From positions 3,534,001-3,598,000 of the forward strand of contig NZ_CP102099.1 of assembly GCF_024582815.1 (NCBI RefSeq): a stretch of DNA of 64,000 nucleotides. The letters are read 5' to 3'. The stretch is from Acinetobacter colistiniresistens. GTDB lineage: Bacteria; Pseudomonadota; Gammaproteobacteria; Pseudomonadales; Moraxellaceae. Below are positions 16,404-50,477 of this stretch, piece by piece; the stretch's first letter is position 1, and each line of letters starts with the position of its first letter. The translations under genes and the position numbers were made by a program. The notes under the pieces are model-generated. The model was not told where the DNA came from. It ran no database searches and saw only the letters and a list, made by a program, of their open reading frames with translations.

Positions 16404-16420
16404 CGCAACTTCCATGCCAC
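16404..16420 (-). promoter_or_regulatory. Sigma-54 promoter of receptor 1 unit
   Basis: GTGGCATGGAAGTTGCG fits the -24/-12 consensus YTGGCACGRNNNTTGCW, with GG and GC correctly spaced. The -12 lies ~35 bp before the start codon at 16369. Confidence 0.8.
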
Positions 16421-16512
16421 TTAATTTATTTTATAAATTTCAATATCTTAAAAAACAAAAGTAAAACTTATGATTCAATTTTGCTGATAGATAAACATTT
16501 TCTCCTGTGCTG

Positions 16513-16530
16513 TTGTTGTTATTCCAACAT
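16513..16530. promoter_or_regulatory. Putative enhancer site for receptor 1 unit
   Basis: TTGTTG-TTATTC-CAACAT matches the shared GTGTTG-N6-CAACAC palindrome in 10 of 12 arm positions and lies about 100 bp upstream of the -24 element. Confidence 0.6.
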
Positions 16531-16551
16531 TGTTTATTTTGGAAAAATGAA

Positions 16552-16584
16552 ACAAAAAAATAGCCATACAACTGTATGGCTATT
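16552..16584 (-). terminator. Terminator of receptor 2 gene
   Basis: On the minus strand AATAGCCATACA pairs with TGTATGGCTATT and is followed by seven T, 25 bp after the receptor 2 stop codon. Confidence 0.85.
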
Positions 16585-16608
16585 AAGAATTGAAAATATT
16601 TCATGTAT

Positions 16609-19221
16609 TTAAAATTTATAACTAAATTGTCCCTGCACCGTGAGTGGACGCATTGGCTGTAAGAATTCACTGTTTGCACCAGCTAAACCATTCACAAAAT
16701 TACGTTCATTGGTTAGATTCAAAATATTTAAGCCCACAGTCCATTGGGGTTGTCGATAATATAATCCCAAATCTAAATTATAGTTATTTGGAACTTTAAC
16801 CGTCTGGCTTAAATTGGTATACCAGTTACTGGTCCACCAGCCTGAGAGATTTACACCAAAGCCTGATTGATGTTGATAATCCACATAAGCACTGGCAGAG
16901 TATTTCGGAATGCCCGCCGCATCATAACGACCTGCTTTACGCTGGTTTAACCCATTACTGTCCCCCCAGACAGTTGCATTGTCTGCATGGAAGCCAAAGG
17001 GAGAAAAACCTGCTGGAATAATTGAGCTATATTCAGCATTCAAATAGGTTAAGTTACCGCCTATCGCAATATTTTTTTGGAGCTGCCAGCGTAATGAAGA
17101 TTCAATCCCTTTCACTTCAAAGCGTGCCATATTGCCATTAGTATCCGGTGATAAATCTCGCTTCTGCTCAAATCCGCTTAATGTGAGGAAGAGTTGATCG
17201 ATGATCGGCTCATATTTAATTCCTAATTCTTTTAATTCACTTTGACTGTCAAAAGCCAAAGGATTCAGTTGATTGCCTGCCCCCCAAATTAGAAATGGGC
17301 CAAAAACACCGGTGTTGAGTGCAGTGCTCTTATCATAGGTAAAATACAGGGTACTTTTTGCTGTTGGCTTGATAAATGTACTGGCTTGATAACTGAGCAA
17401 ACTATATGTATTGCGATCTGAACGGACATCTGTCGGCACTAACACCAACGGGTTTTCCAGTTTGGCTTTGATTGAACTATGATTAATCCCAAGATTAATG
17501 CCAAACACATCATTAAACGTAAAGTTCTGCTGAGTAAACACACTCCACGTATCCCAAGACCCCGTTCCTGTATAAACAGCACCACCACCATTGGGAGGGA
17601 ACCCCCCTTTTTCAGCATATAAACCATGGCCGACTGGATACATTCTTGGCAAATTTAAATAACCAAAGTATTGAGAATATTGAGGAACACCGGCCTGTCC
17701 AATCCAGCCTCCTGTTGAACTGCCATTATTGACCAACCCCAGTAAATCACCTGGATTTTTTTGAGAAGGATCATTGGTCAGATCATAAGGATTAATATTA
17801 AAACTATTATTTGCCGCTAAAGAAGTAAACTCCTCACGGCGATAAGCGCCTCCTGTACTGCTTTTATTATTCACTTTCAGGCCAAACAACTCGAAATCAT
17901 AATCTGCGAGGAATTCTAGGCGATTATCAAATAACTCATGTTCCAGATCAGTAAAGAAACTTCCAACCGAATCACCTAAATCCTTACTGTTTTGATAAAG
18001 CGTACTATTAGAAACAGACCAATGCGTATTCAAATCTTTAACTAATTTTAATTGGGTGCTGAATCGTGTGGCACTATTTTTATCTTCGCTTCGACCAGAA
18101 ATATTATCGTCTAGTTTGACCAATCCATTTCCAGGTATAGATGGATCATAGACCCAACCTCGAATCGTTCCAGCCTGATCTGCTGTTGCATTCGGTAATG
18201 GTGTTGTTTGAACTGGACCTACAGCAATATATTGGTTCTTATCATTCTTTTGTCGATTCTGCCAACCAATTACTTTCGAATTCGCTGCTCCAGATTCAAA
18301 TACAGGTGACCAGAAAGCTGAACCATTTTGAATAATTGGCGTCGCTCTGCCTTTGTAATACTGGCGGTTATCAACAGATTGTTGTGTTGCCCTATTCCAA
18401 CCATGCGTCACGTTAAAATCATAATAATCGTCATAACTTATATTCCAGTCGACACGTAAACTATCATCTGGACGCCAAGCTAAGGCACCATAAAATGCAT
18501 TAAAATTATTTTTCACATTGTCATAATAATCATCGTTTTTTTGGGCTGTTGCACTAACACGAAATGCAAGTTCTTTAGAGATCGGAGCGGTATGATCAAT
18601 ACTGACAGAAAAATTAGGTTCTGTACCTTTTCCGGCATAGATTGAACCAACTGAACCAGAAATCGTTGTTTCTGCTTTATTAAAATTAGGTTTTTTAGTG
18701 AGATAATTAATATATCCACCTGAACCCGAAGTAGGCGCAAAAATCACTCCCGTCGGCCCTGCCACAATATCTGCCGCTTCATATGCATTGAGATTGGTCG
18801 GATGACGGGTACTATAAATCCGTTGGCTATCTTGGAAGACCTCTGAATTTTGCCCACGTATCTGCGGTGCGAAATTGGCATTTTGTCCCCCGCCTCGGGT
18901 AATACTCGGCGCATATTTAACCAGATCATCTGCACTACGAATCACATCTTCACGAAATTGTTGTTCCGATACTTGGGACACCACACGAGGTGTGTCTAAT
19001 ACTGAGCTATCAGTTCCATAGATTGAAGTCACTTTACGTTTGGGAACAACAGTTTGTTTTTTATTTGCACCAGTCACCACGACATCTGCCAAAGTAATCA
19101 CATCACTTTCAGTATCTGCCGATGTTTTTTGGGTTTCTTCGGCAAACACATGTATGGGTAAAGATGCCCCCGAAAAGGCTAAGGCAATCACTAAAGGTTT
19201 TAATTGAAAAGTTTGCTTCAT
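16609..19221 (-). CDS. TonB-dependent outer-membrane receptor 2
   Basis: An 870-residue receptor with signal peptide (ending HVFA/EE), TonB box-like DVVVTGA, a plug with RVVSQVSEQQFREDVI, RGQNSEVFQDSQRIY and DIVAGPTGVIFAPTSGSGGYINYL, and a long barrel ending LTVQGQFSYKF. The plug motif is unlike receptor 1 and closer to the ferrichrome/siderophore-receptor group in layout. It is a single-gene unit with its own sigma-54 promoter and terminator. It is divergent from a Tat-type solute-binding lipoprotein, so the two may pass the same ligand from outer membrane to periplasm. Complete and apparently intact. Confidence 0.9.
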   Translation of the reverse strand: MKQTFQLKPLVIALAFSGASLPIHVFAEETQKTSADTESDVITLADVVVTGANKKQTVVPKRKVTSIYGTDSSVLDTPRVVSQVSEQQFREDVIRSADDLVKYAPSITRGGGQNANFAPQIRGQNSEVFQDSQRIYSTRHPTNLNAYEAADIVAGPTGVIFAPTSGSGGYINYLTKKPNFNKAETTISGSVGSIYAGKGTEPNFSVSIDHTAPISKELAFRVSATAQKNDDYYDNVKNNFNAFYGALAWRPDDSLRVDWNISYDDYYDFNVTHGWNRATQQSVDNRQYYKGRATPIIQNGSAFWSPVFESGAANSKVIGWQNRQKNDKNQYIAVGPVQTTPLPNATADQAGTIRGWVYDPSIPGNGLVKLDDNISGRSEDKNSATRFSTQLKLVKDLNTHWSVSNSTLYQNSKDLGDSVGSFFTDLEHELFDNRLEFLADYDFELFGLKVNNKSSTGGAYRREEFTSLAANNSFNINPYDLTNDPSQKNPGDLLGLVNNGSSTGGWIGQAGVPQYSQYFGYLNLPRMYPVGHGLYAEKGGFPPNGGGAVYTGTGSWDTWSVFTQQNFTFNDVFGINLGINHSSIKAKLENPLVLVPTDVRSDRNTYSLLSYQASTFIKPTAKSTLYFTYDKSTALNTGVFGPFLIWGAGNQLNPLAFDSQSELKELGIKYEPIIDQLFLTLSGFEQKRDLSPDTNGNMARFEVKGIESSLRWQLQKNIAIGGNLTYLNAEYSSIIPAGFSPFGFHADNATVWGDSNGLNQRKAGRYDAAGIPKYSASAYVDYQHQSGFGVNLSGWWTSNWYTNLSQTVKVPNNYNLDLGLYYRQPQWTVGLNILNLTNERNFVNGLAGANSEFLQPMRPLTVQGQFSYKF

Positions 19222-19255: not shown

Positions 19256-19272
19256 CGCAAGGCCTATGCCAA
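19256..19272 (-). promoter_or_regulatory. Sigma-54 promoter of receptor 2
   Basis: TTGGCATAGGCCTTGCG has all invariant -24/-12 bases at correct spacing. The -12 lies ~36 bp before the start codon at 19221. Confidence 0.82.
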
Positions 19273-19442: not shown

Positions 19443-19459
19443 TTGGCATTTATTCTGCA
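19443..19459 (+). promoter_or_regulatory. Sigma-54 promoter of solute-binding protein gene
   Basis: TTGGCATTTATTCTGCA fits the -24/-12 pattern at correct spacing. The -12 lies ~39 bp before the ATG at 19497. Confidence 0.8.
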
Positions 19460-19496: not shown

Positions 19497-21080
19497 ATGA
19501 CAAACCGATCAATTCTATTGTCACGTCGAAAATTTTTAGCACAAAGTCTTAGCGCAGTAGGTGGCGTTTCTTTAATAGGGAGCTTGTCTGGCTGCGATCA
19601 ATCACCACAAACGGGTACTGACGTACAAAGCCCATCTTCTCTCACTCCCAAACATGGTGGAACGATTCGATTGGGTCTAATTGGTGGACAACAATCTGGC
19701 AGTTTAGATCCACATCTGTCTACTTCAAGCGCAGGAATTACCCGAGGTTTTGCCATATATAACAAGCTATGGGAATGGGATGAAAAGATGCTGCCACGTC
19801 TTGCCTTGGCTGAATTTGCTGAACCCAATCATAATGCGAGTGAATGGACTATTCGTCTACGTAAAGGTCTAGAATTCCATCACGGTAAAACGATGACTGC
19901 TGATGATGTGATTTTCTCAGTAAAACGTTTAACTGATCCAAAGCTTGCTTCACCGTTTCGCAATCTGGTGCAATGGATTGATCGGGATCGTATTCAAAAA
20001 TTAGATGAATATACCGTTCGTATTCCTTTTATCAATTCAATTACTGGTTTCGTTGCACTACCTGAAACTTGGGTGAATTTTGGTGGAATCGTCCCTACCG
20101 ACTTTGACCCAGTCCATAACCCAATCGGTGCAGGCCCTTATAAAGTCAAACAGTTTATACCAGGTCAACGTTCTGTGTTTACCCGTTTTGAAAACTATTT
20201 TAAAGCGGATCAACCTTATGCAGACAGTTTTGAGGTGATTGATTTTAAAGATCAAGTCTCACGTTTAAATGCCTTATTAGCAGGACAAATTGATATCGCC
20301 AATGCCATTTCACCTGAATACATTAAAATTCTGGAGCAGGCGAAACACATCCAAACCATTCGTTCTGAAACCAATACCCATAATGGTTTTGACTTTAATA
20401 CGCAACAAGCCCCTTTTAATGATCCTAAAGTCCGTCAGGCATTTCGTTTAATTGCCAATCGTGAGGAGCTTGTACAACGTGGGTTAAATGGTCAGGGACG
20501 TATTGCCAATGATCTCTACTCACCACAGGACCCTGCTTTTCTTAACCTACCCCAACGTCAACAAAATATCGAGGAAGCAAAAAAATTATTGGCACAAGCT
20601 GGTTTTAAAGATGGTTTAAGTGTTGAACTTATTGCACCTGCTGGCAGCGCTCAGCCTGCACTGATCTTTGCAGAACAAGCAAAACATGCCAATGTAAATA
20701 TACGGGTCAAACAAGTCGATGCCGCAACATTTAATGGACCAGACCGCAATAAATGGCAATTGTCGAGTAACGCCACCAATGTCGGTACACCCTATTTATC
20801 TACTGCTGTTGTCAATGATGCACCGATTTCAACCACCCATAAAATCAATTTTAAAGATCCTGAATATAGTGAGTTGTTTTATAAGGCGCTTGCCGAACCA
20901 GATTTAGCAAAGCGAAAAGTGTATTTGACCCAAGCACAGAAAATTCAACATGAACGTGGTGGAATGCTGATCTGGGGATTTAGCCATACCATTGATGCAG
21001 CCACAAAAAATATTGGAGGCTTAGCCCCAGAACATACTATTTTTCCAACGTGGCGTTTTGAGAAATTATGGAAGGCTTAA
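19497..21080 (+). CDS. Tat-exported solute-binding lipoprotein (SBP_bac_5 family)
   Basis: A 527-residue periplasmic binding protein of the dipeptide/opine ABC type. The N-terminus carries a twin-arginine signal (S-R10-R11-K-F-L) that ends in a lipobox LSGC (Cys33). The body shows the family segments HGGTIRLGLIGG, YNKLWEWDEKMLPRLA, GLEFHHGKTMTADDVIFS and VRQAFRLIANREELV. It is clearly a paralogue of the binding protein at 45820-47394, with the same order of motifs. No permease or ATPase gene follows, so it may share the DppBCD/F-like transporter of that operon. It is monocistronic, bounded by a sigma-54 promoter and a terminator. Confidence 0.88.
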   Translation: MTNRSILLSRRKFLAQSLSAVGGVSLIGSLSGCDQSPQTGTDVQSPSSLTPKHGGTIRLGLIGGQQSGSLDPHLSTSSAGITRGFAIYNKLWEWDEKMLPRLALAEFAEPNHNASEWTIRLRKGLEFHHGKTMTADDVIFSVKRLTDPKLASPFRNLVQWIDRDRIQKLDEYTVRIPFINSITGFVALPETWVNFGGIVPTDFDPVHNPIGAGPYKVKQFIPGQRSVFTRFENYFKADQPYADSFEVIDFKDQVSRLNALLAGQIDIANAISPEYIKILEQAKHIQTIRSETNTHNGFDFNTQQAPFNDPKVRQAFRLIANREELVQRGLNGQGRIANDLYSPQDPAFLNLPQRQQNIEEAKKLLAQAGFKDGLSVELIAPAGSAQPALIFAEQAKHANVNIRVKQVDAATFNGPDRNKWQLSSNATNVGTPYLSTAVVNDAPISTTHKINFKDPEYSELFYKALAEPDLAKRKVYLTQAQKIQHERGGMLIWGFSHTIDAATKNIGGLAPEHTIFPTWRFEKLWKA

Positions 21081-21186: not shown

Positions 21187-21591
21187 TTATTGAGGAACGG
21201 TGATTACCGATAATTTATCTACACCGACTCGTTCAATACTTGCCAATAATTTTACCACTGTCCCATAAGGAACAGTTTCATCCGCATTCAGGTTCAAAGC
21301 CAGCTTCGGGTTGCTATTCTTACGTGACTGAATTTCTTGTTCAAAACTTGCAAGTGACACTTTGTCCTTATCCAAAAATATTTCACCCTGTGGATTAACA
21401 CTAATTACGACAGCTTTATTCTGATCAGTGGATTGAGTCGGTGCGGCCTTAGGTAAATTGACTTTCACCGTATTGGTCAGCAAAGGTGCTGTGACGATAA
21501 AGACAATCAGCAAAACCAACATCACATCCACCAACGGTGTAATGTTGATTTCACTCACCACATCATCATCTTGAGAAGTAGAAATTGCCAT
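21187..21591 (-). CDS. exbD: ExbD/TolR-family energy-transducing protein
   Basis: A 134-residue protein with one N-terminal membrane helix (about residues 17-39). The helix contains the essential aspartate in INITPLVDVMLVLLIVFIV, and a periplasmic domain follows. With ExbB it forms the proton-driven motor that energises TonB. The ATG overlaps the exbB stop (TAATG) with AAGGAGT inside the end of exbB, so translation is coupled. The unit ends with a strong terminator. Confidence 0.92.
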   Translation of the reverse strand: MAISTSQDDDVVSEINITPLVDVMLVLLIVFIVTAPLLTNTVKVNLPKAAPTQSTDQNKAVVISVNPQGEIFLDKDKVSLASFEQEIQSRKNSNPKLALNLNADETVPYGTVVKLLASIERVGVDKLSVITVPQ

Positions 21592-22328
21592 TATGCGAAT
21601 ACTCCTTTCTCTTTCACTTCTTTTGTTGAAGCATCATTCAGAATCGTACTCTCTGCTGTATTCTTGGTTTTAGCAGTCGGCAATTGAAAACCAGCCTTTT
21701 GATTTAAACTGACAAAATCTGTTGCAAAATCATCTAAGTCTGCACCAATCGCTTTAACTTTACGTACAAAGTAGTTATAGGCAAGCACTGCAGGTACAGC
21801 AACAGCGATACCAATTCCTGTTGCAATCAATGCTTCACCAATCGGTCCAGCAACGACATCCATACTTGCATTACCAGAATGGGCAATCGCCTGTAATGCA
21901 TGAATGATTCCGAATACGGTACCAAACAAACCAATAAAGGGTGCATTATTACCAATAGACGCCAATAGCGCTGAACCTTTCTCCAATTGACGACGTTCAG
22001 TTAGAATTTGTTTGCGTAAGTGACGTTCCAATAGGTCCTGACGGCTCCAACTGTTTTGCAAGTCATGGTGTGTTTTTTCATCTGCTTCTATCAGTGTTTT
22101 AAACCCCGCATTTGCAACACGTGCTGCTGGTCCTTGACCCGATTCAGATTGAGTTACGGCGTCAGATAAATTTTTTGCTTTCCAAAACGCCTCTACGAAA
22201 CGTTTATCTTGTTTTGATGCTCTTTGGGTCTGAACGATTTTGATGACAACCAGTGCCCAAGTCACAATAGAGAAAACAACCAATAACCAGATAGTGCCGT
22301 CATGGATCAATGAATTAATGTCAGTCAT
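21591..22328 (-). CDS. exbB: ExbB/MotA-TolQ-family proton channel protein
   Basis: A 245-residue protein with three membrane segments (about residues 10-30, 120-145 and 165-185). The conserved GTVFGIIHALQAIA and GPIGEALIATGIGIAVAVPAVLAYN stretches (the latter quoted only as landmarks GEALIATGIGIAVAVP) identify the MotA/TolQ/ExbB proton channel family. Together with ExbD and TonB encoded in the same unit it powers TonB-dependent uptake. GAGGAT precedes the ATG. It belongs to the island's sigma-54 unit rather than to an iron-regulated one; no Fur-box-like sequence was seen upstream. Confidence 0.92.
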   Translation of the reverse strand: MTDINSLIHDGTIWLLVVFSIVTWALVVIKIVQTQRASKQDKRFVEAFWKAKNLSDAVTQSESGQGPAARVANAGFKTLIEADEKTHHDLQNSWSRQDLLERHLRKQILTERRQLEKGSALLASIGNNAPFIGLFGTVFGIIHALQAIAHSGNASMDVVAGPIGEALIATGIGIAVAVPAVLAYNYFVRKVKAIGADLDDFATDFVSLNQKAGFQLPTAKTKNTAESTILNDASTKEVKEKGVFA

Positions 22329-22359
22329 GTAAATATCCTCTTAATCTATAAAATTAAAT

Positions 22360-23187
22360 TTATTTCGGTAATTGATAATGAATTGGAACATCGACCCAAC
22401 CTTCTACAGGGGTTTTACCTTTTAAAGCGGGTGAAAATTTCCATTGCTTTACTGTTCTTACAGCAGCGCTATCTAAAAGTTTTTTGCCACTACTTTGCTT
22501 GACACTGACCGTATCAGGGCTCCCATTTGCGAGTACTTTGACCCTTAAAATCACGGAACCCTCCCAACCACGTTCGAGTGCCTGTTCTGGATATTCGGGT
22601 GCAGGATTACTCAGATAGCCTGCATATCCTTTCGCTTCTGTCACAGGTAAGTTGTCATCGACCGACTTCACAGGTTCAACCACTTTCTGAACAGGTGCAG
22701 GAGCCACCTCTTTGGTCACAACAGCCTCTTCCACTTGTTGTGGCGTAGGTTGAGTGACTGCTTTTGCGACTGGTTTAGGTTGCTCTACCGCTTTCTGTAC
22801 AGGTTTGGGTTGTTCAACCTGTTTAACGATTGGTTTTGGCTTTTCCACAACCGGTGGAATTTTAGGTTTCTCTGTGACAGGAGGAATTTTGGGTTCAATT
22901 ACTTTGGGGGGTTGTTCAGGTTTTACAATTTCAATCACCACCGGTTCTGGCTTATGAATGTCCAAAGTAGGTGTAGGCAAGTGTTTTGCGATATACCAAA
23001 TTCCTAAATGCGCAGAAGTAACTGCAATAATCGCAATCAACACCTTATTCAAGCGAGGTAGTGATGGTTGGCTCAGCGCCAAGGTATGCCGTGTAAACGG
23101 ATCTGCTATGTTGTTTGAACTAGCTTCAGGTGCATATTGTTCAAATAGCAACGCCCGTTTATGCGAGTTAAATATTAGTTCACTCAT
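22360..23187 (-). CDS. tonB: TonB protein
   Basis: A 275-residue TonB. One membrane helix (about residues 46-66, RLNKVLIAIIAVTSAHLGIW) is followed by a long proline/lysine/valine-rich spacer of EKPKP and EQPKP repeats (residues ~80-175) that spans the periplasm. The C-terminal domain is NPAPEYPEQALERGWEGSV, ILRVKVLANGSPDTV and VRTVKQWKFSPA, with the YP box that pairs with receptor TonB boxes. It is the first gene of the tonB-exbB-exbD unit. Location and promoter suggest that it serves the island's three receptors. Confidence 0.93.
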   Translation of the reverse strand: MSELIFNSHKRALLFEQYAPEASSNNIADPFTRHTLALSQPSLPRLNKVLIAIIAVTSAHLGIWYIAKHLPTPTLDIHKPEPVVIEIVKPEQPPKVIEPKIPPVTEKPKIPPVVEKPKPIVKQVEQPKPVQKAVEQPKPVAKAVTQPTPQQVEEAVVTKEVAPAPVQKVVEPVKSVDDNLPVTEAKGYAGYLSNPAPEYPEQALERGWEGSVILRVKVLANGSPDTVSVKQSSGKKLLDSAAVRTVKQWKFSPALKGKTPVEGWVDVPIHYQLPK

Positions 23188-23224: not shown

Positions 23225-23241
23225 TGCACAAGTCATGCCAA
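23225..23241 (-). promoter_or_regulatory. Sigma-54 promoter of tonB-exbB-exbD
   Basis: TTGGCATGACTTGTGCA keeps the -24 GG and -12 GC at correct spacing with one -12 box mismatch. The -12 lies ~39 bp before the tonB start. Confidence 0.75.
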
Positions 23242-23320: not shown

Positions 23321-23341
23321 TGTTATGCTGTTCAAACAACA

Positions 23342-24510: not shown

Positions 24511-24565
24511 AATAGTTCTCAATAATTAAACATTTCACGACATCGTGTTCGTTAGCTATGTCATG

Positions 24566-24582
24566 AGCAGAAATCATGCCGT
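24566..24582 (-). promoter_or_regulatory. Sigma-54 promoter of the SsuD-like gene
   Basis: ACGGCATGATTTCTGCT keeps GG and GC with the right spacing but departs from consensus just before GG. The -12 lies ~57 bp before the ATG, the longest leader of the set. Confidence 0.65.
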
Positions 24583-24651: not shown

Positions 24652-24671
24652 AGTGTTGAAATTTCAACACT
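24652..24671. promoter_or_regulatory. Perfect 20-bp palindrome, putative enhancer site
   Basis: AGTGTTGAAATTTCAACACT is perfectly self-complementary and is the best copy of GTGTTG-N6-CAACAC. It sits midway between divergent sigma-54 promoters, ~80 bp from one -24 and ~115 bp from the other. Confidence 0.7.
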
Positions 24672-24772: not shown

Positions 24773-24789
24773 TTGGCTTGGTTCTTGCT
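24773..24789 (+). promoter_or_regulatory. Sigma-54 promoter of the SsuABC-like importer
   Basis: TTGGCTTGGTTCTTGCT has all invariant -24/-12 bases. It lies ~35 bp before the ATG at 24824 and shows that a TTG start at 24773 cannot be used. Confidence 0.8.
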
Positions 24790-25897: not shown

Positions 25898-25900
25898 GCG

Positions 25901-27528: not shown

Positions 27529-27564
27529 TAGCCTCTAATTTAAAAATACAATCAGGATTTCAAC

Positions 27565-29441: not shown

Positions 29442-29449
29442 TTCTATAG
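29442..29449. repeat. Target-site duplication, left copy (IS256 copy 1)
   Basis: TTCTATAG, identical to 30766-30773 on the other side of the element. Confidence 0.9.
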
Positions 29450-36222: not shown

Positions 36223-36230
36223 TTAATTAA
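36223..36230. repeat. Target-site duplication, left copy (IS256 copy 2)
   Basis: TTAATTAA, identical to 38861-38868. Confidence 0.88.
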
Positions 36231-38860: not shown

Positions 38861-38868
38861 TTAATTAA
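38861..38868. repeat. Target-site duplication, right copy (IS256 copy 2)
   Basis: TTAATTAA, matching 36223-36230. Confidence 0.88.
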
Positions 38869-41288: not shown

Positions 41289-41997
41289 CGGAATAGTCTC
41301 TCAGAATATTGAGTCTCCGACAAACCCGGTACGGTTCACTATTATTTTGTCCCATCGCATCCCAGTCATCGAGCAACTCGACTCCCTGCGTATCACGATG
41401 AATTAAAATCGACACAGGTCCATCATCACTACCAGCGAATAAGGAAATCCATTCTGCGAGTAAAGAGCCGGTAGAATAGAACTTACTACCATTTAATATT
41501 AATTGCCCTTCTGAATTTCGCTCTACACGCGTCTTATGCTGAAATTTATCTTTGCCACCCACTTCTGCAAGTGCATTGCCCAAACGCTTTCCGCTTAAGA
41601 TATCACCCAGTAACTGATCACGAATTTCATCATCATAGCCCGTTAAAACGCCTCGGAACATGGTGAAGTGAATCTGTAATAACTGCCCGACACCACCATC
41701 GGCGGATGAAATAATTTTCACCACATTGACCAAGGTTGAAATACTGGCGCCCAAGCCCCCAAATTGCTTGGGGACAATAATCGCAGTTAAACCCGCTTCT
41801 GAAATTAAGCGAGCTTGTTCATAAGGTACGGCCTTGTTATAACTGGGGTCTCGAGCAAATTGATTCAGTTGATCCGCCACCTCTTTTGCAATGTCAAGTG
41901 CTTCTTGCTCACTTTGAATATGCCTGATACTACCTAATTCTAAAAAATTACGTTGGTTAATGTCGTTCATTGTTAACTCCGGAAAATCTGTTCTTTT

Positions 41998-43815
41998 TTA
42001 TGCGCAAACTTCAAGTACCTTGTTTTTAAACAAGCTTGGCGCATGAGTAAGCAAAGTTTTGGTATATGTATGTTGAGGGTGACTCAGCACTTGATCTGTT
42101 TCGCCATATTCAACAATATGTCCATTTTTTAATACGGCGACTCGATCTGCGATTGCACGAACAACCCCTAGGTTATGGGTCACAAATAGTAAGGTCACCC
42201 CTTGCTGTTGGAGGTCTTGTAGCAGTTTTAAGATGGAAGCCTGAACTGAAACATCCAAAGCAGATGTAATCTCATCACAAATCAAAACATCAGGTTGGCA
42301 TAGCAAAGCGCGTGCGATAGCCACGCGTTGTCGCTCCCCACCCGATAAATCTCTTGGATAGAGTTCTTGAACTTGTATAGGCAGAGAGACTTGTTGAAGT
42401 ACCTGTGTGACTTTTGCTATGGCGTCTTGTCGAGATGCTCCAAAGAAATGCTGTACAACTTTAATTAATGTCTGACCAATCGTATGCGCTGGATTCAAAG
42501 CCTTATAAGGGTTTTGAAAGATATATTGCAGTTTATGCCGCTGCTGCAAATGACGCTGTTGCCCACGCAACGACAAGACTTCATCTGCTAATATAATTTG
42601 TCCATCTGCATTTTCATTCAGCCCGGCAATGACACGTGATAACGTGGTCTTACCCGAGCCCGACTCACCTACCAATGCTAAACACTCGCCTTTTTTGAGT
42701 TGAAATGAGATATCAAAAAGTGCCTGTTGCTGCCCATACCATGCATGAATATGTTCAACTTTTAATAGAGCTTCCCTGTCTGTTTCTCTTTCAATCACTT
42801 GATGATCAATCTCTTTAAAATGAATCACACCGACATGATCCGAATGGTGACAAGCAACAAAATGCGAATCAAACTGATCTTTTAATTGAGTTAATTCAGG
42901 TTGTTTTTGACGACATATATCTGTAGCGAAAGCACAACGTGCCGCAAAAGCACATCCTACTGGGCGCTCATTGGGCGAAGGAGCATGTCCTTCAATTGGA
43001 GATAAATATTTACGAATGGCCACATCGGGAATGGCGTTCAGTAAACCTTGCGTATAAGGGTGCTTAGGAGTTTCAAATAGTTGGGTTAATACCGCATCTT
43101 CTGCAATTCGACCCGAATACAGAACAATCACCCGATCTGCAATATCTTTGACCACCGTTAAGTCATGCGATACGTAAATAGCCGCAACATGATATTCCCG
43201 ACATAATTTACGAATGATGTTCAACACCAAGGTCTGGGTCGTCACATCTAATGCGGTGGTTGGCTCATCCAGAACGATCAAACGTGGCTGTAGCAAGAAT
43301 GCCAAGGCCAATAAAATTCGTTGTTGTTGCCCACCCGAAAGCTGATGAGGATAACGCTTTAGAAATAGCTCATCCTGCGGCAATCCCACTTCATTTAAAA
43401 TTTTGGCAACCTTTTGGTATTTTTCAGCGCTCGATAACTGTGTCTGATGGACATCTAATAATTCAAATAAATGTTGTCCAATACTTAATGCTGGGTTGAG
43501 TGCTGTTCCAGGATCTTGGGCGACATGACTGATTTTATAACCACGAACCTGACGCAAAGCATGATCATCTAAACTGAGAATATCTTGATTCTCTAGCTCG
43601 ATTGAGCCTTGAATAATCTTGGCTCCATAGCGTGCATAGCCCAATAAAGCACTTGATAATGTGGTTTTACCTGAGCCACTTTCTCCAACTAGCCCTAGAA
43701 CTTCTCCTTCTCGTAGGCTAAATGAAATATCAGAAACGATGTGATTGCCGGTGTTGACCAATGCCACGGTTAAGTCTTTTACCGTTAATACGGTATTTTT
43801 AAATAGATATGCCAT
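41998..43815 (-). CDS. Fused double ATPase of peptide/opine-type ABC importer (DppD-DppF-like)
   Basis: A 605-residue protein with two complete nucleotide-binding domains. Domain 1: Walker A GESGSGKTT, signature LSGGQQQRILLALAF, Walker B LIVLDEPTTALD, ending with the oligopeptide-transporter C-terminal extension and its cysteines (VGCAFAARCAFATDIC). Domain 2 (from residue ~345): GESGSGKTT, LSGGERQRVAIARAL, LICDEITSALD. It replaces the separate DppD and DppF subunits. It lies two bases after the permease gene, in the operon 50417 to 39390, and powers import of the ligand bound by the lipoprotein at 45820. Confidence 0.88.
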   Translation of the reverse strand: MAYLFKNTVLTVKDLTVALVNTGNHIVSDISFSLREGEVLGLVGESGSGKTTLSSALLGYARYGAKIIQGSIELENQDILSLDDHALRQVRGYKISHVAQDPGTALNPALSIGQHLFELLDVHQTQLSSAEKYQKVAKILNEVGLPQDELFLKRYPHQLSGGQQQRILLALAFLLQPRLIVLDEPTTALDVTTQTLVLNIIRKLCREYHVAAIYVSHDLTVVKDIADRVIVLYSGRIAEDAVLTQLFETPKHPYTQGLLNAIPDVAIRKYLSPIEGHAPSPNERPVGCAFAARCAFATDICRQKQPELTQLKDQFDSHFVACHHSDHVGVIHFKEIDHQVIERETDREALLKVEHIHAWYGQQQALFDISFQLKKGECLALVGESGSGKTTLSRVIAGLNENADGQIILADEVLSLRGQQRHLQQRHKLQYIFQNPYKALNPAHTIGQTLIKVVQHFFGASRQDAIAKVTQVLQQVSLPIQVQELYPRDLSGGERQRVAIARALLCQPDVLICDEITSALDVSVQASILKLLQDLQQQGVTLLFVTHNLGVVRAIADRVAVLKNGHIVEYGETDQVLSHPQHTYTKTLLTHAPSLFKNKVLEVCA

Positions 43816-43817
43816 GC

Positions 43818-44666
43818 TTATTTTTCCTCAATCCGAGCCGCTGCACGTCCAACGCCCTCAGCCAATACATTGGTTCCGAGCGCAAACAAAGCAATTAAGA
43901 GGACAGGAGCAAATACCGCCCATGGCTGTACCAATAAACCAGCGCGATTTTCATTAATCATGAGTCCCCAATCTGCTGCTGGAGGTGCCACACCATAACC
44001 AAGAAAAGCCAAACCAGATAACATACCCACAGCCCATGTCAGCATCACACCCAAATGGATGAGTAAAGGCGTCAACATGTTGGGTAAAATTTCACGAAAT
44101 AAAATATAGGTTTTTGAGTACCCAAGCATTCTGGCTGCTTCGATATATTCTTGTTCCACCAGATTCAGTGCAACGCTTCGCGCAAGACGCACGACCCCAG
44201 GAATAAAAGCAATTGAAACCGTTAAAACAATGAGCCAAGGTTCCCGACCTAACATTGAAACGATAAGCAAGACCAATATAAGATCCGGAAAGGCCATAAA
44301 AACATCAGTCAGCCAAGTCACGAACTGATCAATCTTATTTCGGGCAAAAGCAGCGAATATGCCTAAACTAGAACCAATAATTAATGCAACCAAACTGGCA
44401 GCCAGTGTCATCCAGATAATAGAAGCCCCACCAGCAAGGACACGTGACCAGACATCATGACCAATATAGTCATAACCTAAAAATGATTTTCCTTCAGGCG
44501 GGCCATACGTCATGCCGACTAATGCAGTGGGTTCAAATGGAACCAGTAGCGGGCCAACCAGTGCAAAAATTAAAACTAGAGCTGTGACAACAAATCCAAA
44601 CCGTACTTGTCTTTCACGAATTAAGGTTTGAAAAAAATTTCTTTGGTACCAATGAAGTGAGCTCAT
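43818..44666 (-). CDS. ABC importer permease (DppC-like)
   Basis: A 282-residue permease with the OppC/DppC N-terminal segment (one helix near residue 30, then GKSFLGYDYIGHDVWSRVLAG, landmark LGYDYIGHDVWSRV) and five further helices. The coupling loop is VEQEYIEAARMLGYSKTYILF. The ATG overlaps the DppB-like stop (ATGA), with a near-perfect AAGGAGGT site. Confidence 0.88.
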   Translation of the reverse strand: MSSLHWYQRNFFQTLIRERQVRFGFVVTALVLIFALVGPLLVPFEPTALVGMTYGPPEGKSFLGYDYIGHDVWSRVLAGGASIIWMTLAASLVALIIGSSLGIFAAFARNKIDQFVTWLTDVFMAFPDLILVLLIVSMLGREPWLIVLTVSIAFIPGVVRLARSVALNLVEQEYIEAARMLGYSKTYILFREILPNMLTPLLIHLGVMLTWAVGMLSGLAFLGYGVAPPAADWGLMINENRAGLLVQPWAVFAPVLLIALFALGTNVLAEGVGRAAARIEEK

Positions 44667-45814
44667 TTCCCACCTCCTTGCTGAAGGTTCTTTAACGCAT
44701 TGCGGCGGTCAACAGGTTTTACCGTAATGGGCCGACCCGACTTCCATAACCGTAGCGCCTGACGACGACCTGGCGAACGTGCTTTATGCCTTTTGGCTGT
44801 TCGTATCTTGGGGGTGAGTAAGGTTGTGATTAAATCTGCAATTAAATTGACCACCACTACACAAATGGTGAGCAATAAAACAATCGCTTGAATGGTTGGG
44901 ATATCTCTTAATTCAATTGCGGCATTGAGTGCATTACCAATACCGGGATAACTAAACACCACCTCAATGATGAGTGCACCGCTCAGCAGAACTCGTATGG
45001 TGAGGGCTGTTCCCTGCACCACTGGCACCAGTGCATTGGGTAAAACATGTTTCCATATGATCCGTCGCTCAGGAATACCACGTAATCGTGCAGAGGTCAC
45101 ATAGTCGGACTCAAGTGCGTCAATCATGGAACCGCGCACCAACCGCATCAGATATGGAATAAGCGATAAGGCCAAAGTTAAAATCGGTAAAACCAAAAAC
45201 TCGATTTGGCTAAAAGCTGACTGCTCTGGAATCAACAAAGATGCTGCTGGCAATATGTGCAGGATTGAGGTTGAGAAAAACATCATGAGCCAAATTGCAA
45301 TCACAAATCCAGGAACAGCCTTGAATAGAATAGAGCTAGAAACAATAATACGATCGAGTTTGCTATCTCGACGGAGTGACAGCCACACACCCAACACGAC
45401 TGAAAGTGGTACAGTAATGACAATCACCAAGCTTGTTAATGCAACGGTATTACCAAAATAATTCTGAACAATTTGCACAACAGGGACATTGGAATCAATC
45501 GAACGGCCAAAATTACCTTGCAATAATTGACTCAACCAATGCCAGTATTGAAGCAGTATTGGATCATTCAGGCCCAATTGTTCACGAAGAATTTGAACTG
45601 TCGCTTCCGGTGCTTCTGGGCCCAAAATGACGCGAGCCGGATCAGATGGGAGTGCTTGTGTGGCAATAAATACAATAAGACTAATCACCAATACAACCAA
45701 TACACCTGACAACAACCGTGTGAAAAACCAAGGTAACCATGCTGGTATTTCAAATGATCTCGTCATTGTTTGATGTGGAATGGCTGTCTCTATTTTGCTG
45801 GATTGCGTTGTCAT
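44663..45814 (-). CDS. ABC importer permease (DppB-like)
   Basis: A 383-residue permease with the DppB layout: a helix near residue 40, the periplasmic segment DPARVILGPEAPEATVQIL and REQLGLNDPILLQYWHWL, then five helices with coupling loop LESDYVTSARLRGIPERRIIW. Its basic C-terminal tail of ~50 residues (KRHKARSPGRRQALRLWKSG) is unusual. The start is set at 45814, after AGGGGGTG in the end of the binding-protein gene; an in-frame GTG at 45823 is the alternative. Confidence 0.85.
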   Translation of the reverse strand: MTTQSSKIETAIPHQTMTRSFEIPAWLPWFFTRLLSGVLVVLVISLIVFIATQALPSDPARVILGPEAPEATVQILREQLGLNDPILLQYWHWLSQLLQGNFGRSIDSNVPVVQIVQNYFGNTVALTSLVIVITVPLSVVLGVWLSLRRDSKLDRIIVSSSILFKAVPGFVIAIWLMMFFSTSILHILPAASLLIPEQSAFSQIEFLVLPILTLALSLIPYLMRLVRGSMIDALESDYVTSARLRGIPERRIIWKHVLPNALVPVVQGTALTIRVLLSGALIIEVVFSYPGIGNALNAAIELRDIPTIQAIVLLLTICVVVVNLIADLITTLLTPKIRTAKRHKARSPGRRQALRLWKSGRPITVKPVDRRNALKNLQQGGGK

Positions 45815-45819
45815 AGCGG

Positions 45820-47394
45820 TCACCCCCTACGCCAAAATTCATCTGTACGCCACGCAGCAAAGCCTGTGCGATCGGGTGTTACGCCACCAATTTGGCCAGA
45901 ATGTGCATCGAGTACATGGTTAAAACCCCAAATGAGCAAACCACCTTGCTCATGTTGAATATGCTGTGCTTCATGAATGAGAACTTTGCGTTTTTCCAAA
46001 TCAGGCTGTTGTAATGCTGAATGAACCAATTCAGTAAAACGTTCATTGTTAAATCGGGTTTTATTATTTGCCGCACCTGGCCCATCAATTTGCAAGACGG
46101 TTAATAAAAAAGGTCGTGAAACGTTTGAACCTGTACTAAATGCCCAATCCTGTTTTACAGCATCAGCAAAGGTGGCAGCTTCAACCTGTTTAACATTAAC
46201 GATAACACCCGCCTGAGCTGCATGCTGAGCAAAAACCAATGCAGCATTGCTATCTGGACCTGTATATAAATCAACCGCCAAACTATTGCTAAAACCAGCT
46301 TCTTTCAGCAACGCCTTCGCCTTATTTAAATCTTGCTTACGTTGCGCAATACTGTGGTCATATACAGGATCACTAAATGAATAGAGATCATTGGCAACGC
46401 GTCCTTGACCAGCTAAAGCCCGTTTAACCAAATCATCTCTATTGGCAATCAATCTAAAAGCTTGACGTACTCGAGGATCATTAAACGGTGCTTTGGAGGT
46501 ATTCATATCAAAAGATTGCCAAGCATCTGTTTCAGATGAGACGAGATTCAATCGTTTATTGGCTTGAATTAAAGAAATATGCTCGGCACTTACCCCTGAA
46601 GCAATGTCAATTTGACCAGATTGCAAAGCAGCAAGACGTCCTGTCTGATCTTTAAAATCAATGATTTCGATTGCATCAGCATAAGGCTTATTTTCTTTCC
46701 AATAGTTTTCAAAACGAACAAAGCGTGAACGTTGACCTGGCGTAAAACTGTCAAGCTTAAAGGGCCCAGCCCCGACCACATTTTTAACTGGGTCATAATC
46801 TGTAGGAACAATCCCTCCCCAACTCATCCATGCCTCAGGTAAAGCAACTAAGCCTTTTCCTTGAGCAAAAGGGATCTCAACGGTGTATTCATCGACCTTC
46901 TTAACTCCATCTCGTTGTAATGAATAAAGATAGGCAGCAAATGGAGAAGCAAGTTTAGGGTCCGTCAAACGGCGTAAGGAGAAAATAACATCATCCGCAG
47001 TAATCGTCTTACCATGATGAAATTCGAGTCCTTTTTTTAAGCGAATGGTCCATTTCGTCCCATCATTATTCGGCTCTGCAAATTCAGCAAGTGCGAGTTT
47101 AGGCTGGATATCTCTACCCCATTCCCATAATTTTGCATATAAAGGCCAACCTCTAAATGCACTAGACATACCAATAGGCTTGTGCGCATCTAAATTACCT
47201 GCTTGATTGCCGTTGATTACTCCAATTTTGATCACACCACCTTTTTTCGGAATATCATTCTGAGTATTGCTAGGATTAGCACTTTCAGAAGATGAAGAAT
47301 CAGTTTTAGAGCATCCTATCAGACTGATTGCAGCAACAGCGCCAACCCCCAATCCAGTTTGTTTAATGAGTTCTCGACGTGTAATTTTGTTCAT
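45820..47394 (-). CDS. Tat-exported solute-binding lipoprotein (SBP_bac_5 family), transporter subunit
   Basis: A 524-residue binding protein with a twin-arginine signal (T-R6-R7-E-L-I) ending in lipobox LIGC (Cys28). Family segments: KKGGVIKIGVINGNQAGN, YAKLWEWGRDIQPKLA, GLEFHHGKTITADDVIFS, VRQAFRLIANRDDLV. It is a close paralogue of 19497-21080. It precedes its permeases and double ATPase in the operon. The FMNH2 monooxygenase, aldolase and DszB-like desulfinase encoded upstream suggest that its ligand is an organosulfur compound rather than a peptide. Confidence 0.88.
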   Translation of the reverse strand: MNKITRRELIKQTGLGVGAVAAISLIGCSKTDSSSSESANPSNTQNDIPKKGGVIKIGVINGNQAGNLDAHKPIGMSSAFRGWPLYAKLWEWGRDIQPKLALAEFAEPNNDGTKWTIRLKKGLEFHHGKTITADDVIFSLRRLTDPKLASPFAAYLYSLQRDGVKKVDEYTVEIPFAQGKGLVALPEAWMSWGGIVPTDYDPVKNVVGAGPFKLDSFTPGQRSRFVRFENYWKENKPYADAIEIIDFKDQTGRLAALQSGQIDIASGVSAEHISLIQANKRLNLVSSETDAWQSFDMNTSKAPFNDPRVRQAFRLIANRDDLVKRALAGQGRVANDLYSFSDPVYDHSIAQRKQDLNKAKALLKEAGFSNSLAVDLYTGPDSNAALVFAQHAAQAGVIVNVKQVEAATFADAVKQDWAFSTGSNVSRPFLLTVLQIDGPGAANNKTRFNNERFTELVHSALQQPDLEKRKVLIHEAQHIQHEQGGLLIWGFNHVLDAHSGQIGGVTPDRTGFAAWRTDEFWRRG

Positions 47395-47404: not shown

Positions 47405-48598
47405 TTAAACGACGACTTCTTGATTCAAGAGAGAATCAATGGATGAATTTTTATTGAGCTTAGGTAACTCAAAACCATGATCGAGCGCTAATAACGGGAA
47501 CAATAAATCAGCTACACGATAAGCTTCTCCAATTAAAGGGAAACCAGATAAGATAAAGGCAGATACACCATAGCTCTCGTATTCTTTAATCCGTTCAGCA
47601 ATATTTTCAGCACTGCCGACCAAGGCAGTACCTGCTGCCGGGTTTAAAATATCAAAACCAAATAAAGATGGCCCAGTCCAAACATTAGGATAAATTTCAA
47701 AATCTTTAGCACGAGGTAATACTCCATGGCGGAGCAATGTCAGATTTCTTTGAACGATCGGATTTGGACTTTGATAACTCTCAAAAGTTTCATGAGGAGG
47801 AAGCTGTCGTTTAACCGCTTCGATTGCATAATTGACATCAATTTTGTCGAGTAATGACTGAGCATACTGCCAAGCCTCTTCTTCTGTTTCTCGAACAATA
47901 ATTTGTAATCGAGTACCAAACTCTAAACTGCGCCCAATTTTTGCAGCCTCAGCCGCAACTTTGCCAAACTTTTCTCCGAGCAACGGTGGGGTATTTGCAA
48001 AACTTAAGTACACGTCGAGTAACTCGACAGAATGCTGAACACCTTTGGCAGAAGTTCCAGCTCCCCACAATGGAACACCCTGCTTTTGAGTTGGACCACG
48101 CCATTTGGACATAGGCGATCCACCTTCTAGACGTGGGGCAATTTGAATAAATTCGCCCTCAAATCCAGACCGATCACCTAAATAGTTTTGCTGAAATGCT
48201 GTCCAGTATTCTTTGCTAAAGTCATAACGCTTATCATGCGTATAGTGAATACCTAAAGCGGCTAAACCCTGATCACTTCCATTGACGACATTAAATAACA
48301 AACGTCCTTTAGAAAATGCATCAAACGTTTGCGCATATTTTGCCAATACTGCTGGCTGGACTTCTCCAGGATGTTGGGCAACCAGAAACTTTAACCGTTC
48401 AGTAAATGGAATTAAACTTGCAGCAACAGCAAGTGTTTCATACTCGCTGGTACCCATAAGTGAACCGTAAAAACCAAGTCGATCCGCAGTAATCGCAATC
48501 TGTTGCAAGTGTTCATAATCGGTATCCCACCGCCCAGATTCCAACCAAGGATATGGCCCATCGGGAGCAGTGAGATACCATAAAAGTTTTACAGCCAT
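47405..48598 (-). CDS. LLM-class FMNH2-dependent monooxygenase (SsuD/DszA-like)
   Basis: A 397-residue luciferase-like monooxygenase: LLWYLTAPDGPYPWLESG at the start, LIPFTERLKFLVAQHPGEVQ, GRLLFNVVNGSDQGL, VPLWGAGTSAKGVQHSVEL, ALVGSAENIAERIKEYESYG and FILSGFPLIGEAYRVADLLFP. It is distinct from the two other family members in this window. In the Dsz pathway the equivalent enzyme (DszA) opens a sulfone to a sulfinate, the substrate of DszB; gene order next to a DszB-like gene fits this. The exact substrate is not predictable. Confidence 0.86.
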   Translation of the reverse strand: MAVKLLWYLTAPDGPYPWLESGRWDTDYEHLQQIAITADRLGFYGSLMGTSEYETLAVAASLIPFTERLKFLVAQHPGEVQPAVLAKYAQTFDAFSKGRLLFNVVNGSDQGLAALGIHYTHDKRYDFSKEYWTAFQQNYLGDRSGFEGEFIQIAPRLEGGSPMSKWRGPTQKQGVPLWGAGTSAKGVQHSVELLDVYLSFANTPPLLGEKFGKVAAEAAKIGRSLEFGTRLQIIVRETEEEAWQYAQSLLDKIDVNYAIEAVKRQLPPHETFESYQSPNPIVQRNLTLLRHGVLPRAKDFEIYPNVWTGPSLFGFDILNPAAGTALVGSAENIAERIKEYESYGVSAFILSGFPLIGEAYRVADLLFPLLALDHGFELPKLNKNSSIDSLLNQEVVV

Positions 48599-48631
48599 AG
48601 TATTCTCTATATTTATATTTGAATCAGATTT

Positions 48632-49342
48632 CTAATGAAGTGGAAGTAATCCAAGCGACTTCGCTTTATCGGTTAAACCACTCATTCGCCACTGCTGCTG
48701 TAAAACACCCTGTCCGTATTCACGGCTTCCCCCAGCTAATTCAGCCAGTAGCTGAATCTGTGCACCTTCCTCAAGTAACAAGATAAATTCAGCTGTTTCT
48801 TGTAATCCCTGACGTCCCCATACGGTTGCACCACCGTTGGCTTCTAAAATTGCTCGATGTTCGATATCAACTTTGAGTTGATCTAAAATGAAATCGACTT
48901 CTGCCTGACGGCGATCAATATAAATTGGTAGTTCTTTAAATAAATGAAAGCGCTGAACAGGCACATAACGAATCGGTAAGGTACGATGGGTTTGCGCCCA
49001 AGCCCCTAAATTCGGCGCGTGTACATGAGATATTGTGGTGACATCTGCATGCTCGCGAAAAAGTTTGTTATAGCGCCCGCCTGCATTTTTTCTTCCCAAT
49101 AAAACTTCACCATCAATGGTCTCCACAAGTACTTTGCTTTTTTGATCTTTAGACCACGGTCCTGCATAGTTAAAAGTGACTAAGGTATTATCAGGTCCAC
49201 GTTCAACAAAATTAACCGTTCCATTTGCCGTGATTGTTCTTGTTTCACGGAACACTTCAAAAGCAAATTCAGCTTTTTCACGGTTCGATTCGATAAAATC
49301 ATTAAGTTCAGGAGACAGTGGGGTTTGAATAAGTGTTGTCAT
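48632..49342 (-). CDS. Class II aldolase/adducin-domain protein
   Basis: A 236-residue protein of the class II aldolase/adducin N-terminal family. The zinc-site pattern is visible as HVHAPNLGAWAQTHRTLPI, with a further His in GPWSKDQ...REHADVTTISHVH and EHRAILEANGGATVWGRQGL near the C-terminus. Family members are aldolases, epimerases or decarboxylases acting on sugar phosphates or similar hydroxy-oxo compounds. It sits between the DszB-like and monooxygenase genes, 13 and 33 bp away, so it must act in the same pathway, perhaps on the carbon product after C-S cleavage. No published counterpart in Dsz operons is known to me. Confidence 0.8.
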   Translation of the reverse strand: MTTLIQTPLSPELNDFIESNREKAEFAFEVFRETRTITANGTVNFVERGPDNTLVTFNYAGPWSKDQKSKVLVETIDGEVLLGRKNAGGRYNKLFREHADVTTISHVHAPNLGAWAQTHRTLPIRYVPVQRFHLFKELPIYIDRRQAEVDFILDQLKVDIEHRAILEANGGATVWGRQGLQETAEFILLLEEGAQIQLLAELAGGSREYGQGVLQQQWRMSGLTDKAKSLGLLPLH

Positions 49343-49355
49343 GATTAATACCCTA

Positions 49356-50417
49356 TTAAAATTGTTTATTTTGGCGACGTTTTAAAACTTCGAGCAAAGG
49401 ACGGTGATCAACCCAAGTATCAAGATCGATATCGCGCTCGAGAAAACCGTGTAACCAAAGGAAATCTTTTTGTTGTCTTAGAAGCTCTAAGCGCTCTTCA
49501 CTTAATGATGGATGTAACGATTTATGAAAGTTATTACGGTAGGCCGTTGCGACACTCTCTGCACCTGCAATCGTTTCGTCTTCAAGAATAACCAGCACTT
49601 CATCTAAATGATCTTGCGCCCAATCTGCGGTATCAAACAGCTCTTCCAGAAAATCAACGACGACCTCAAAGTGATCTTTTAACAAATCTTCATGTACGGT
49701 AATTGGACGAGGCGTACCATTGTTTACACGGGAGCTCACATCTTCAAATTGATCCAGATCAATCCCAACTTTTAACCCGCGTTTCGTCGCAGCTTCGACA
49801 GCAGATGCGCCTTTAACATAAACAGCATCAACTTCACCAGTGATTAATGCATCTAATCCAGACCAATAGGTACTTGCATCACGTTGTTGTGTATTCGATT
49901 CTGCTCGTTCAGGGACTTCAATAAAATCCACATCACGGAAGGTTAAATTTGCGAGTTGCAAAGCACCTCGAATACCCTGTAAAGACATCGCTCTAAAAAT
50001 GCTACCTGCCCGTTTGTCTGCATATTCAGGTAAAGCAACTTTTACATTTTTTAAATGCTCCGGTTTGCTGATTTCAGAATCAGGGCGAACAATGATCACT
50101 TGCCATTCATCAATCCATGTCAAACCAATGAGTCGACTTGGCGCACCTTCAGAACGAGCAGCTAATGCTGGAACATTTCCACCTTCACGAAACAATGCTG
50201 GCAGTTGATGGTCAAAATGATGAACAGAGAGACCTTTACGGGCATCTTGTAAAACAGCAACATCAATACCATGCTGTTCAAACTTTTCGATCAGTGTCCC
50301 ACGTTTTAGTGAGATGCCTGTTGCCGTTGGGACTGGACATCGAGTGACCCAGATTTCAGATAAAGTGCTTTTTACAAATTCTTTAGAATTTTCTTTTTTA
50401 TCGATAACAAGTGACAT
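49356..50417 (-). CDS. DszB-like sulfinate desulfinase (intact paralogue)
   Basis: A 353-residue protein, the intact counterpart of the interrupted gene at 35641. It has the DszB landmarks: Cys27 in TRCPVPTATG, His67 in VHHFDHQLP, Arg77-Glu-Gly-Gly in FREGGNVPAL, with a His-to-Arg distance of 10 as in DszB. No signal peptide is visible, so it is probably a cytoplasmic hydrolase releasing sulfite from an organic sulfinate. It is the first gene of the operon that continues with aldolase, monooxygenase, the ABC importer and the dszC-like gene, and has a sigma-54 promoter. Annotation pipelines would likely call it ABC substrate-binding. Confidence 0.85.
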   Translation of the reverse strand: MSLVIDKKENSKEFVKSTLSEIWVTRCPVPTATGISLKRGTLIEKFEQHGIDVAVLQDARKGLSVHHFDHQLPALFREGGNVPALAARSEGAPSRLIGLTWIDEWQVIIVRPDSEISKPEHLKNVKVALPEYADKRAGSIFRAMSLQGIRGALQLANLTFRDVDFIEVPERAESNTQQRDASTYWSGLDALITGEVDAVYVKGASAVEAATKRGLKVGIDLDQFEDVSSRVNNGTPRPITVHEDLLKDHFEVVVDFLEELFDTADWAQDHLDEVLVILEDETIAGAESVATAYRNNFHKSLHPSLSEERLELLRQQKDFLWLHGFLERDIDLDTWVDHRPLLEVLKRRQNKQF

Positions 50418-50460
50418 AGGTATTCCTTAGGATATTTCCAATTTCATATCACTTGTATTG

Positions 50461-50477
50461 AGCAGCTTTTGTGCCAA
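50461..50477 (-). promoter_or_regulatory. Sigma-54 promoter of the dszB-like operon
   Basis: TTGGCACAAAAGCTGCT has a full TGGCAC -24 box and a correctly spaced -12 GC. The -12 lies ~45 bp before the start at 50417. Confidence 0.85.

Follow-up and report, generated by a model that had tools for sequence, protein, structure and literature searches.

The question raised by this locus is whether ten sites resembling sigma-54 promoters, which precede the genes of an organosulfur island of about 38 kb, still control that island in the genome where it was found. The analysed stretch (64,000 nt, hereafter the window) comes from Acinetobacter colistiniresistens (assembly GCF_024582815.1, contig NZ_CP102099.1, positions 3,534,001–3,598,000 of the forward strand). 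A sequence-only reading of the window had proposed that the ten promoters drive the island as one regulon. We hold it as quite probable that the sites are the sigma-54 promoters of one ancestral organosulfur regulon, which has been orphaned here by the deletion of its activator gene and is most likely silent.

All ten coordinates (10/10) carried a correctly oriented 16-mer in which exactly 10 bases separate GG from GC, as had been read from the sequence. The T of the −24 element lies 45–59 bp upstream of the start codon, which agrees with the 30–60 bp given before; two start codons (24824 and 35362) were set downstream of the default open reading frame starts after the sites had been seen, and the relatives align there. 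The predicted promoters and the relatives in which the GG..GC pair is kept were as follows:

16404–16419, minus strand, promoter TGGCATGGAAGTTGCG before TonB receptor 1; kept in 8/8 relatives
19256–19271, minus strand, promoter TGGCATAGGCCTTGCG before TonB receptor 2; kept in 7/7 (A. puyangensis row dropped)
19444–19459, plus strand, promoter TGGCATTTATTCTGCA before the solute-binding protein gene at 19497–21080; kept in 8/8 (three paralogue rows dropped)
23225–23240, minus strand, promoter TGGCATGACTTGTGCA before tonB-exbB-exbD; kept in 8/8
24566–24581, minus strand, promoter CGGCATGATTTCTGCT before the luciferase-like monooxygenase gene LLM2 (23377–24522); kept in 9/9, CGG included
24774–24789, plus strand, promoter TGGCTTGGTTCTTGCT before the SsuA-like operon (start 24824); kept in 9/9 (ANC 4558 row dropped)
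31589–31604, minus strand, promoter TGGCATTGGCTTTGCT before TonB receptor 3 (broken here); kept in 10/10
35396–35411, minus strand, promoter TGGCATGAATCTCGCA before the ABC exporter pair (start 35362); GG-10-GC in 9/10
35596–35611, plus strand, promoter TGGCATCAATTTTGCT before the second DszB-like gene (split here by an insertion sequence, IS); kept in 10/10
50461–50476, minus strand, promoter TGGCACAAAAGCTGCT before the operon of dszB1, aldolase, LLM3, solute-binding protein, dpp and sfnB-like genes; kept in 11/11

The usual form of the sites was TGGCAT-N6-TGC. Nine start with TGG and one (24581) with CGG, and the −24 box is TGGCAT or CGGCAT in eight of the ten, with TGGCTT and TGGCAC in the remaining two. 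Since most −24 boxes read TGGCAT and site 24581 starts with CGG, the motif as literally written in the sequence-only reading was absent from the window, even when N stood for its R and one mismatch was tolerated. When scored against the sigma-54 consensus (TGGCACG / TTGCW), all ten sites reached 9–10 of 12 and none 11 or 12. The true divergent pairs number three (19271/19444, 24581/24774 and 35411/35596), not the four pairs or near-pairs counted before. The genome contains rpoN.

Single sites of this kind are not rare, as TGGCAYN6TGCW has 73 matches genome-wide, and the set could in principle reflect a chance density of motifs in A+T-rich intergenic DNA. However, 10 of the 12 island upstream regions scored at least 9 of 12, whereas 500 dinucleotide shuffles gave 0.09 such regions on average and never more than 1, so that the proposed density beyond chance was borne out; outside the island, 0/11 upstream regions reached this score. 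With the conservation and the dyads described below also speaking against it, the probability of a chance origin is negligible.

Upstream regions of orthologous genes were compared in up to 11 Acinetobacter relatives. The best-matching 16-mer within approximately 140 bases of the start was taken, which introduces a mild bias toward conservation, and five gene-anchor rows were dropped as paralogous or unalignable (S54, ANC 4558, and A. baumannii at 19444; ANC 4558 at 24774; A. puyangensis at 19271). GG-10-GC was retained in 80/80 relative sequences over nine sites and in 9/10 at the tenth (35411). In the seven diverged relatives, the eight core positions were identical to the window in 421/424 cases; identity was 2043/3180 (64%) in the 60 bp upstream, 2422/3710 (65%) further upstream, and 1253/1864 (67%) between site and start. 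Unusual variants were also kept, namely CGGC at 24581 (9/9) and TGGCTT at 24774 (8/9, with TGGCGT in A. baylyi). The site-to-start distance was 45–62 bp in nearly all relatives; in A. puyangensis, sites 24774 and 35596 were farther away by the anchor used. Judged from these sequences, the ten sites are real and conserved sigma-54 promoters of an unusually broad regulon.

A second, enhancer-like element, the dyad TGTTG-N6-CAACA, was found 52–106 bp upstream of the promoters, ahead of single ones and in the space between divergent ones. The dyads with at most one mismatch that were located were:

16514–16529, exact; exact in 7/8 relatives and with 1 mismatch in the eighth
23326–23341, 1 mismatch
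24654–24669, dyad TGTTGAAATTTCAACA, common to a divergent promoter pair; exact in 9/9 relatives at 24581
35481–35496, 1 mismatch, between divergent promoters
35512–35527, second dyad of the same intergenic region, 1 mismatch; exact in several relatives
50559–50574, exact; exact in 9/11 relatives and with 1 mismatch in two

The best dyad 30–130 bp upstream had 0–2 mismatches at 10/10 island sites and no more than one at 7/10. At promoter-like sites elsewhere in the genome (the first 30 by coordinate of the 73 matches), the best dyad had 3–5 mismatches at 30/30. Summed over the seven intergenic regions, the dyad mismatches were 6, versus a mean of 23.0 and a minimum of 17 in 1000 shuffles. When the 21 exact dyads were combined with the 72 strict promoter matches of contig 1, just one pair in the genome, 50461/50559, was correctly positioned within 300 bp. 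The same arrangement recurred at eight loci with marker homologues in Pseudomonas, Methylotenera, Massilia, and Zoogloeaceae, where 15/40 promoter-like sites had a dyad with at most one mismatch, and 76/8000 random positions did so in the control. One Methylotenera locus (L057) had two promoter-dyad pairs (3676 and 7635) near a DszB-like gene, and no activator was found in the examined stretch of it.

As the GCA-N7-TGC part of the sites forms an inverted repeat, they might instead be the palindromic box of another regulator (e.g., of the LysR type). The conserved GGC...GC spacing, the distance to the start, the upstream dyad, the presence of rpoN, and a sigma-54 activator encoded in the island of the relatives all argue against such a box, which is very improbable. 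The conserved promoters and their one enhancer-like code thus tie the receptors, TonB-ExbBD, importers, exporter, and oxygenases together, as had been suggested.

In the relatives, the activator gene is located inside the island, between tatC and a gene for a luciferase-like oxygenase. It encodes an enhancer-binding protein of about 358 aa with no sensor domain, which retains the GAFTGA and Walker motifs (A. proteolyticus). No SfnR model was among the NCBIfam hits; the protein is referred to here as SfnR-like. Three of its Acinetobacter orthologues shared 45–49% identity with the activator that neighbours a DszB-like gene in Pseudomonas loci. The dyad is most likely the binding site of this activator.

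Presence of the activator followed that of dszB1, the marker gene of the island, whose nearest named relatives are from Acinetobacter (including A. proteolyticus, A. modestus, and A. higginsii, 98–99%). The marker was present in 17/175 Acinetobacter genomes and the activator (83–100% identity) in 14/175; all 14 were among the 17, and 0/158 of the others had it. Outside those 14 genomes, no match above 58% identity was seen among the matches listed. In the 12 genomes with both genes on one contig, they were 19.1–35.0 kb apart. A search for a sigma-54 promoter of the activator gene itself in nine relatives gave none: the 260 bp upstream contained no TGG/CGG-type GG-10-GC site in 9/9.

The dszB1 genomes without the island activator were the present one, A. 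higginsii, and A. tjernbergiae. Of the 17 dszB1 genomes, 16 retain one or more SfnR-like activators. In two of the 16, those of A. higginsii and A. tjernbergiae, this is a paralogue only, with about 50% identity to the island activator; the present genome has none. The paralogue (375 aa) is found in a tau-like locus of A. higginsii (L068:6752–19926; TauD, ABC importers), is conserved in other Acinetobacter, and occurs also in two genomes without dszB1; the families of its neighbours were determined in A. higginsii only. It was not preferred as the cognate activator, since in three 20-kb surroundings 0/3 sites scoring at least 10 had the dyad, although one site scoring 9, in one genome, did. 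The paralogue may serve the regulon in A. higginsii and A. tjernbergiae.

The loss of the activator in the present genome was traced to a single junction:

29086–29087, deletion junction, about 5.97 kb missing versus relatives

At this junction, the window lacks 5970, 5972, and 5982 bp in comparison with A. proteolyticus, Ac_5812, and A. modestus, respectively. The lost segment comprised most of the second tatC, the SfnR-like activator gene, the luciferase-like monooxygenase gene LLM4 (which in relatives has its own GG-10-GC promoter 45–51 bp upstream in 9/10), a lipase-like gene, and the 3' part of TonB receptor 3. Genome-wide searches detected no SfnR-like gene anywhere in this genome. The sole complete TatC found in the genome is encoded at another place, and the deleted segment has therefore not simply moved. 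Three clear sigma-54 activators are left, NtrC, RtcR, and a PilR-like protein, and an SfnR-like query retrieved the same three. NtrC and RtcR were above the NCBIfam cut-offs; the PilR-like protein, for which none of the NCBIfam models came within the limit applied, was assigned by eye from its sequence and a kinase neighbour.

Of the 17 dszB1 genomes, the comparison over the whole length of the island covered 11 relatives and A. tjernbergiae. Two species had different, larger gaps over the same activator gene, with central island genes also gone:

A. higginsii, loci L107, L077, and L078
A. tjernbergiae, loci L112–L114

Synteny suggests that both species once had the activator.

The proposed driving of the island by these promoters was not supported for the present genome, the island activator being deleted and only NtrC, RtcR, and the PilR-like protein being left. 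Neither the deletion nor the dyads had been noticed in the sequence-only reading. Several points weigh against the orphaned and silent regulon that we favour instead. The dyads of two of the seven intergenic regions were not significant singly (shuffle fractions 0.109 and 0.131), and sites 19271, 19444, and 31604 carry a dyad with two mismatches only. The junction might also stem from an error in sequencing or assembly. Among the 23 intact genes analysed, the ratio of nonsynonymous to synonymous changes (pN/pS) was 0.072, 0.085, and 0.091 versus three relatives, which indicates purifying selection. The role of the lost activator might, in principle, be taken over by NtrC, RtcR, or the PilR-like protein.

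If the deletion were an assembly or single-isolate artefact, the strain would have an intact activator. One assembly of the species was searched, and the junction has no obvious repeat (by eye), which leaves room for this explanation. The junction lies, however, inside a 3.87-Mb contig (the genome has 3.89 Mb in all) and not at its end, no SfnR-like gene was found genome-wide, the single TatC is elsewhere, and two other species have different deletions over the same gene. An artefact is accordingly improbable.

The measurement of pN/pS bears on whether the regulon still works here. Relaxed selection on the orphaned genes was not found by this measure; relative-versus-relative values were 0.071 and 0.096 in two comparisons. 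The unrelaxed ratio means that either the activator loss was recent or the island is still working. Sigma-54 activators at high level can cross-activate, and NtrC, RtcR, the PilR-like protein, and rpoN are all present, so that one of the three activators, or unassisted leakage, might operate the promoters. Against this, the island dyad is unlike the NtrC site (TGCACC-N5-GGTGCA), 16/17 dszB1 genomes keep an SfnR-like activator, and three island genes are cut by IS in the present genome. We regard continued function as unlikely, though less so than an artefact, and retain the reading of a recent activator loss.

The interrupted genes are those of TonB receptor 3 (with the deletion in addition), the second DszB-like protein, and the SfnB/DszC-like oxygenase. 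The insertions look young because the IS copies in the window were 99.8–100% identical and their flanking direct repeats were still legible (by eye). The second DszB-like gene is split by a nested insertion, an IS3-type element inside an IS256-family element (36231–38860). Three IS3 copies (within 36231–38860, at 40031–41336, and at about 55243–56548) were 100% identical and carry an ALIL frameshift pseudoknot; tRNA and Rfam scans gave IS frameshift elements only.

The island encodes three TonB receptors, TonB-ExbBD, Tat genes, two importers, an exporter, and two DszB-like proteins. Its sulfur-scavenging target genes were assigned by family and structure matches, several of them below curated cut-offs:

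12008–12742, minus strand, FMN reductase (PF03358)
12824–14035, minus strand, luciferase-like monooxygenase LLM1, SsuD/SfnG-like, below NCBIfam cut-offs
14036–16369, minus strand, TonB-dependent receptor 1 (family match)
16609–19221, minus strand, TonB-dependent receptor 2 (family match)
19497–21080, plus strand, family-5 solute-binding protein with Tat-like signal RRKFL (by eye)
21187–23187, minus strand, island tonB-exbB-exbD (family match)
23377–24522, minus strand, luciferase-like monooxygenase LLM2, SsuD-like, below cut-off
24824–28320, plus strand, ABC importer with SsuA-like binding protein (96.4 of 163.5 bits), two permeases, and ATPase
28644–29060, plus strand, tatB of the second Tat set; the partner tatC is cut at the deletion junction
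30722–31558, minus strand, TonB receptor 3, 5' part only, cut by the IS at 29449–30765 and the deletion
31722–35362, minus strand, two-subunit ABC exporter, MsbA-like, below cut-off
35641–39334, plus strand, second DszB-like gene, split by the IS at 36231–38860; likeness to dszB1 by eye
39390–41970, minus strand, SfnB/DszC-like oxygenase, split by the IS at 40031–41336; family taken from the intact A. proteolyticus homologue
41998–47394, minus strand, oligopeptide-type importer with fused ATPases, two permeases, and binding protein
47405–48598, minus strand, luciferase-like monooxygenase LLM3, SsuD-like, below cut-off
48632–49342, minus strand, class II aldolase-like protein (family match)
49356–50417, minus strand, dszB1, DszB-like desulfinase, island marker gene

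The family-5 binding proteins of the island have twin-arginine signals (by eye), and the remnant of the second Tat set (28644–29086) lies in the same island. Beside the island, a ChrB-like gene and an adjacent membrane transporter gene (ChrA-like by eye) occupy 50691–52987 and probably confer chromate resistance; the 150 bp preceding the ChrB-like gene contained no sigma-54 site.

Known systems resemble parts of the island. In DszB, Cys27, His60, and Arg70 have catalytic roles; the dszB1 protein aligned to 2de2 (E 8.5e-13) with identical residues at all three. The island also shares with the Dsz (4S) DszA/B/C/D system luciferase-like oxygenases, an FMN reductase, and a DszC-like oxygenase that matched the DszC structures 3x0x and 5xb8. 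Unlike in Dsz, the DszC-like enzyme matched the NCBIfam SfnB model best, under its cut-off (376.9 of 430.9), and reached 185.3 of 850 bits on the DszC model, short of the DszC equivalog. No DszA model was among the profile hits of the luciferase-like proteins; alkanesulfonate monooxygenase was the best, under its cut-off.

The SfnR, SfnR1, and SfnR2 regulons of Pseudomonas (sfnFG, sfnA, and msu) are alike in sigma-54 control, in a short activator, and in oxygenases for sulfur starvation that are of the SfnB, SsuD, and FMN-reductase types. When P. aeruginosa is starved of sulfur, its SfnR1 and MsuCDE are reported to increase (PMC12581299). The island differs from these regulons in the addition of receptors, TonB-ExbBD, Tat, importers, an exporter, and two DszB-like proteins, and in that the activator is deleted here. 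Within the same genus, flavin two-component sulfur oxygenases are also used in the dimethyl sulfide (DMS) pathway of A. baylyi ADP1, in which six genes were strongly induced on DMS versus sulfate (PMC13352529, 2026); in the text of that paper, TonB and promoter had no hits, and SfnR and sigma54 occurred in the references only. A copy of the island was seen in A. baylyi DSM 14961. The island, its activator, and the deletion were not described in the open-licence titles and abstract beginnings searched.

Sigma-54 polymerase waits at the −24/−12 element, and DNA opening needs an AAA+ activator bound upstream. In the relatives, the SfnR-like protein most likely binds the TGTTG-N6-CAACA dyads upstream of the promoters and, through DNA looping and ATP hydrolysis, would open the complex of the sigma-54 holoenzyme. 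As it has no sensor domain, it would be controlled through its amount, and its supply, probably set by CysB when sulfate is short, would act as the switch. All members of the regulon would be turned on together as one block, comprising the three receptors powered by the island TonB-ExbBD, the two ABC importers with their Tat-type binding proteins, the second Tat set, flavin oxygenases, desulfinases, and the exporter. The last may export what is left of the substrate after desulfurisation. As the substrate, a sulfone or sulfinate that porins cannot pass because of its size would be suitable. In the present genome, the promoters most likely bind polymerase but stay unactivated, because the recent deletion of about 5.97 kb took the activator and no SfnR-like replacement was found; the strain would thus be a natural activator knock-out.

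A more speculative and rather doubtful extension concerns the three lineages with three deletions. Loss of the single activator might have been favoured repeatedly as a way to shut off the whole envelope set under one code, for example if the receptors make the cell vulnerable to phages or bacteriocins, with the genes kept.

If the proposed regulon is correct, sigma-54 control of organosulfur use would extend from a few enzymes to a system reaching from import to desulfuration, TonB motor included. The enhancer-promoter code is explicit and was seen again at gamma- and betaproteobacterial loci. A regulon need not be on merely because its promoters are all intact, and natural activator-minus strains would allow a direct test of whether the whole system depends on a single activator.

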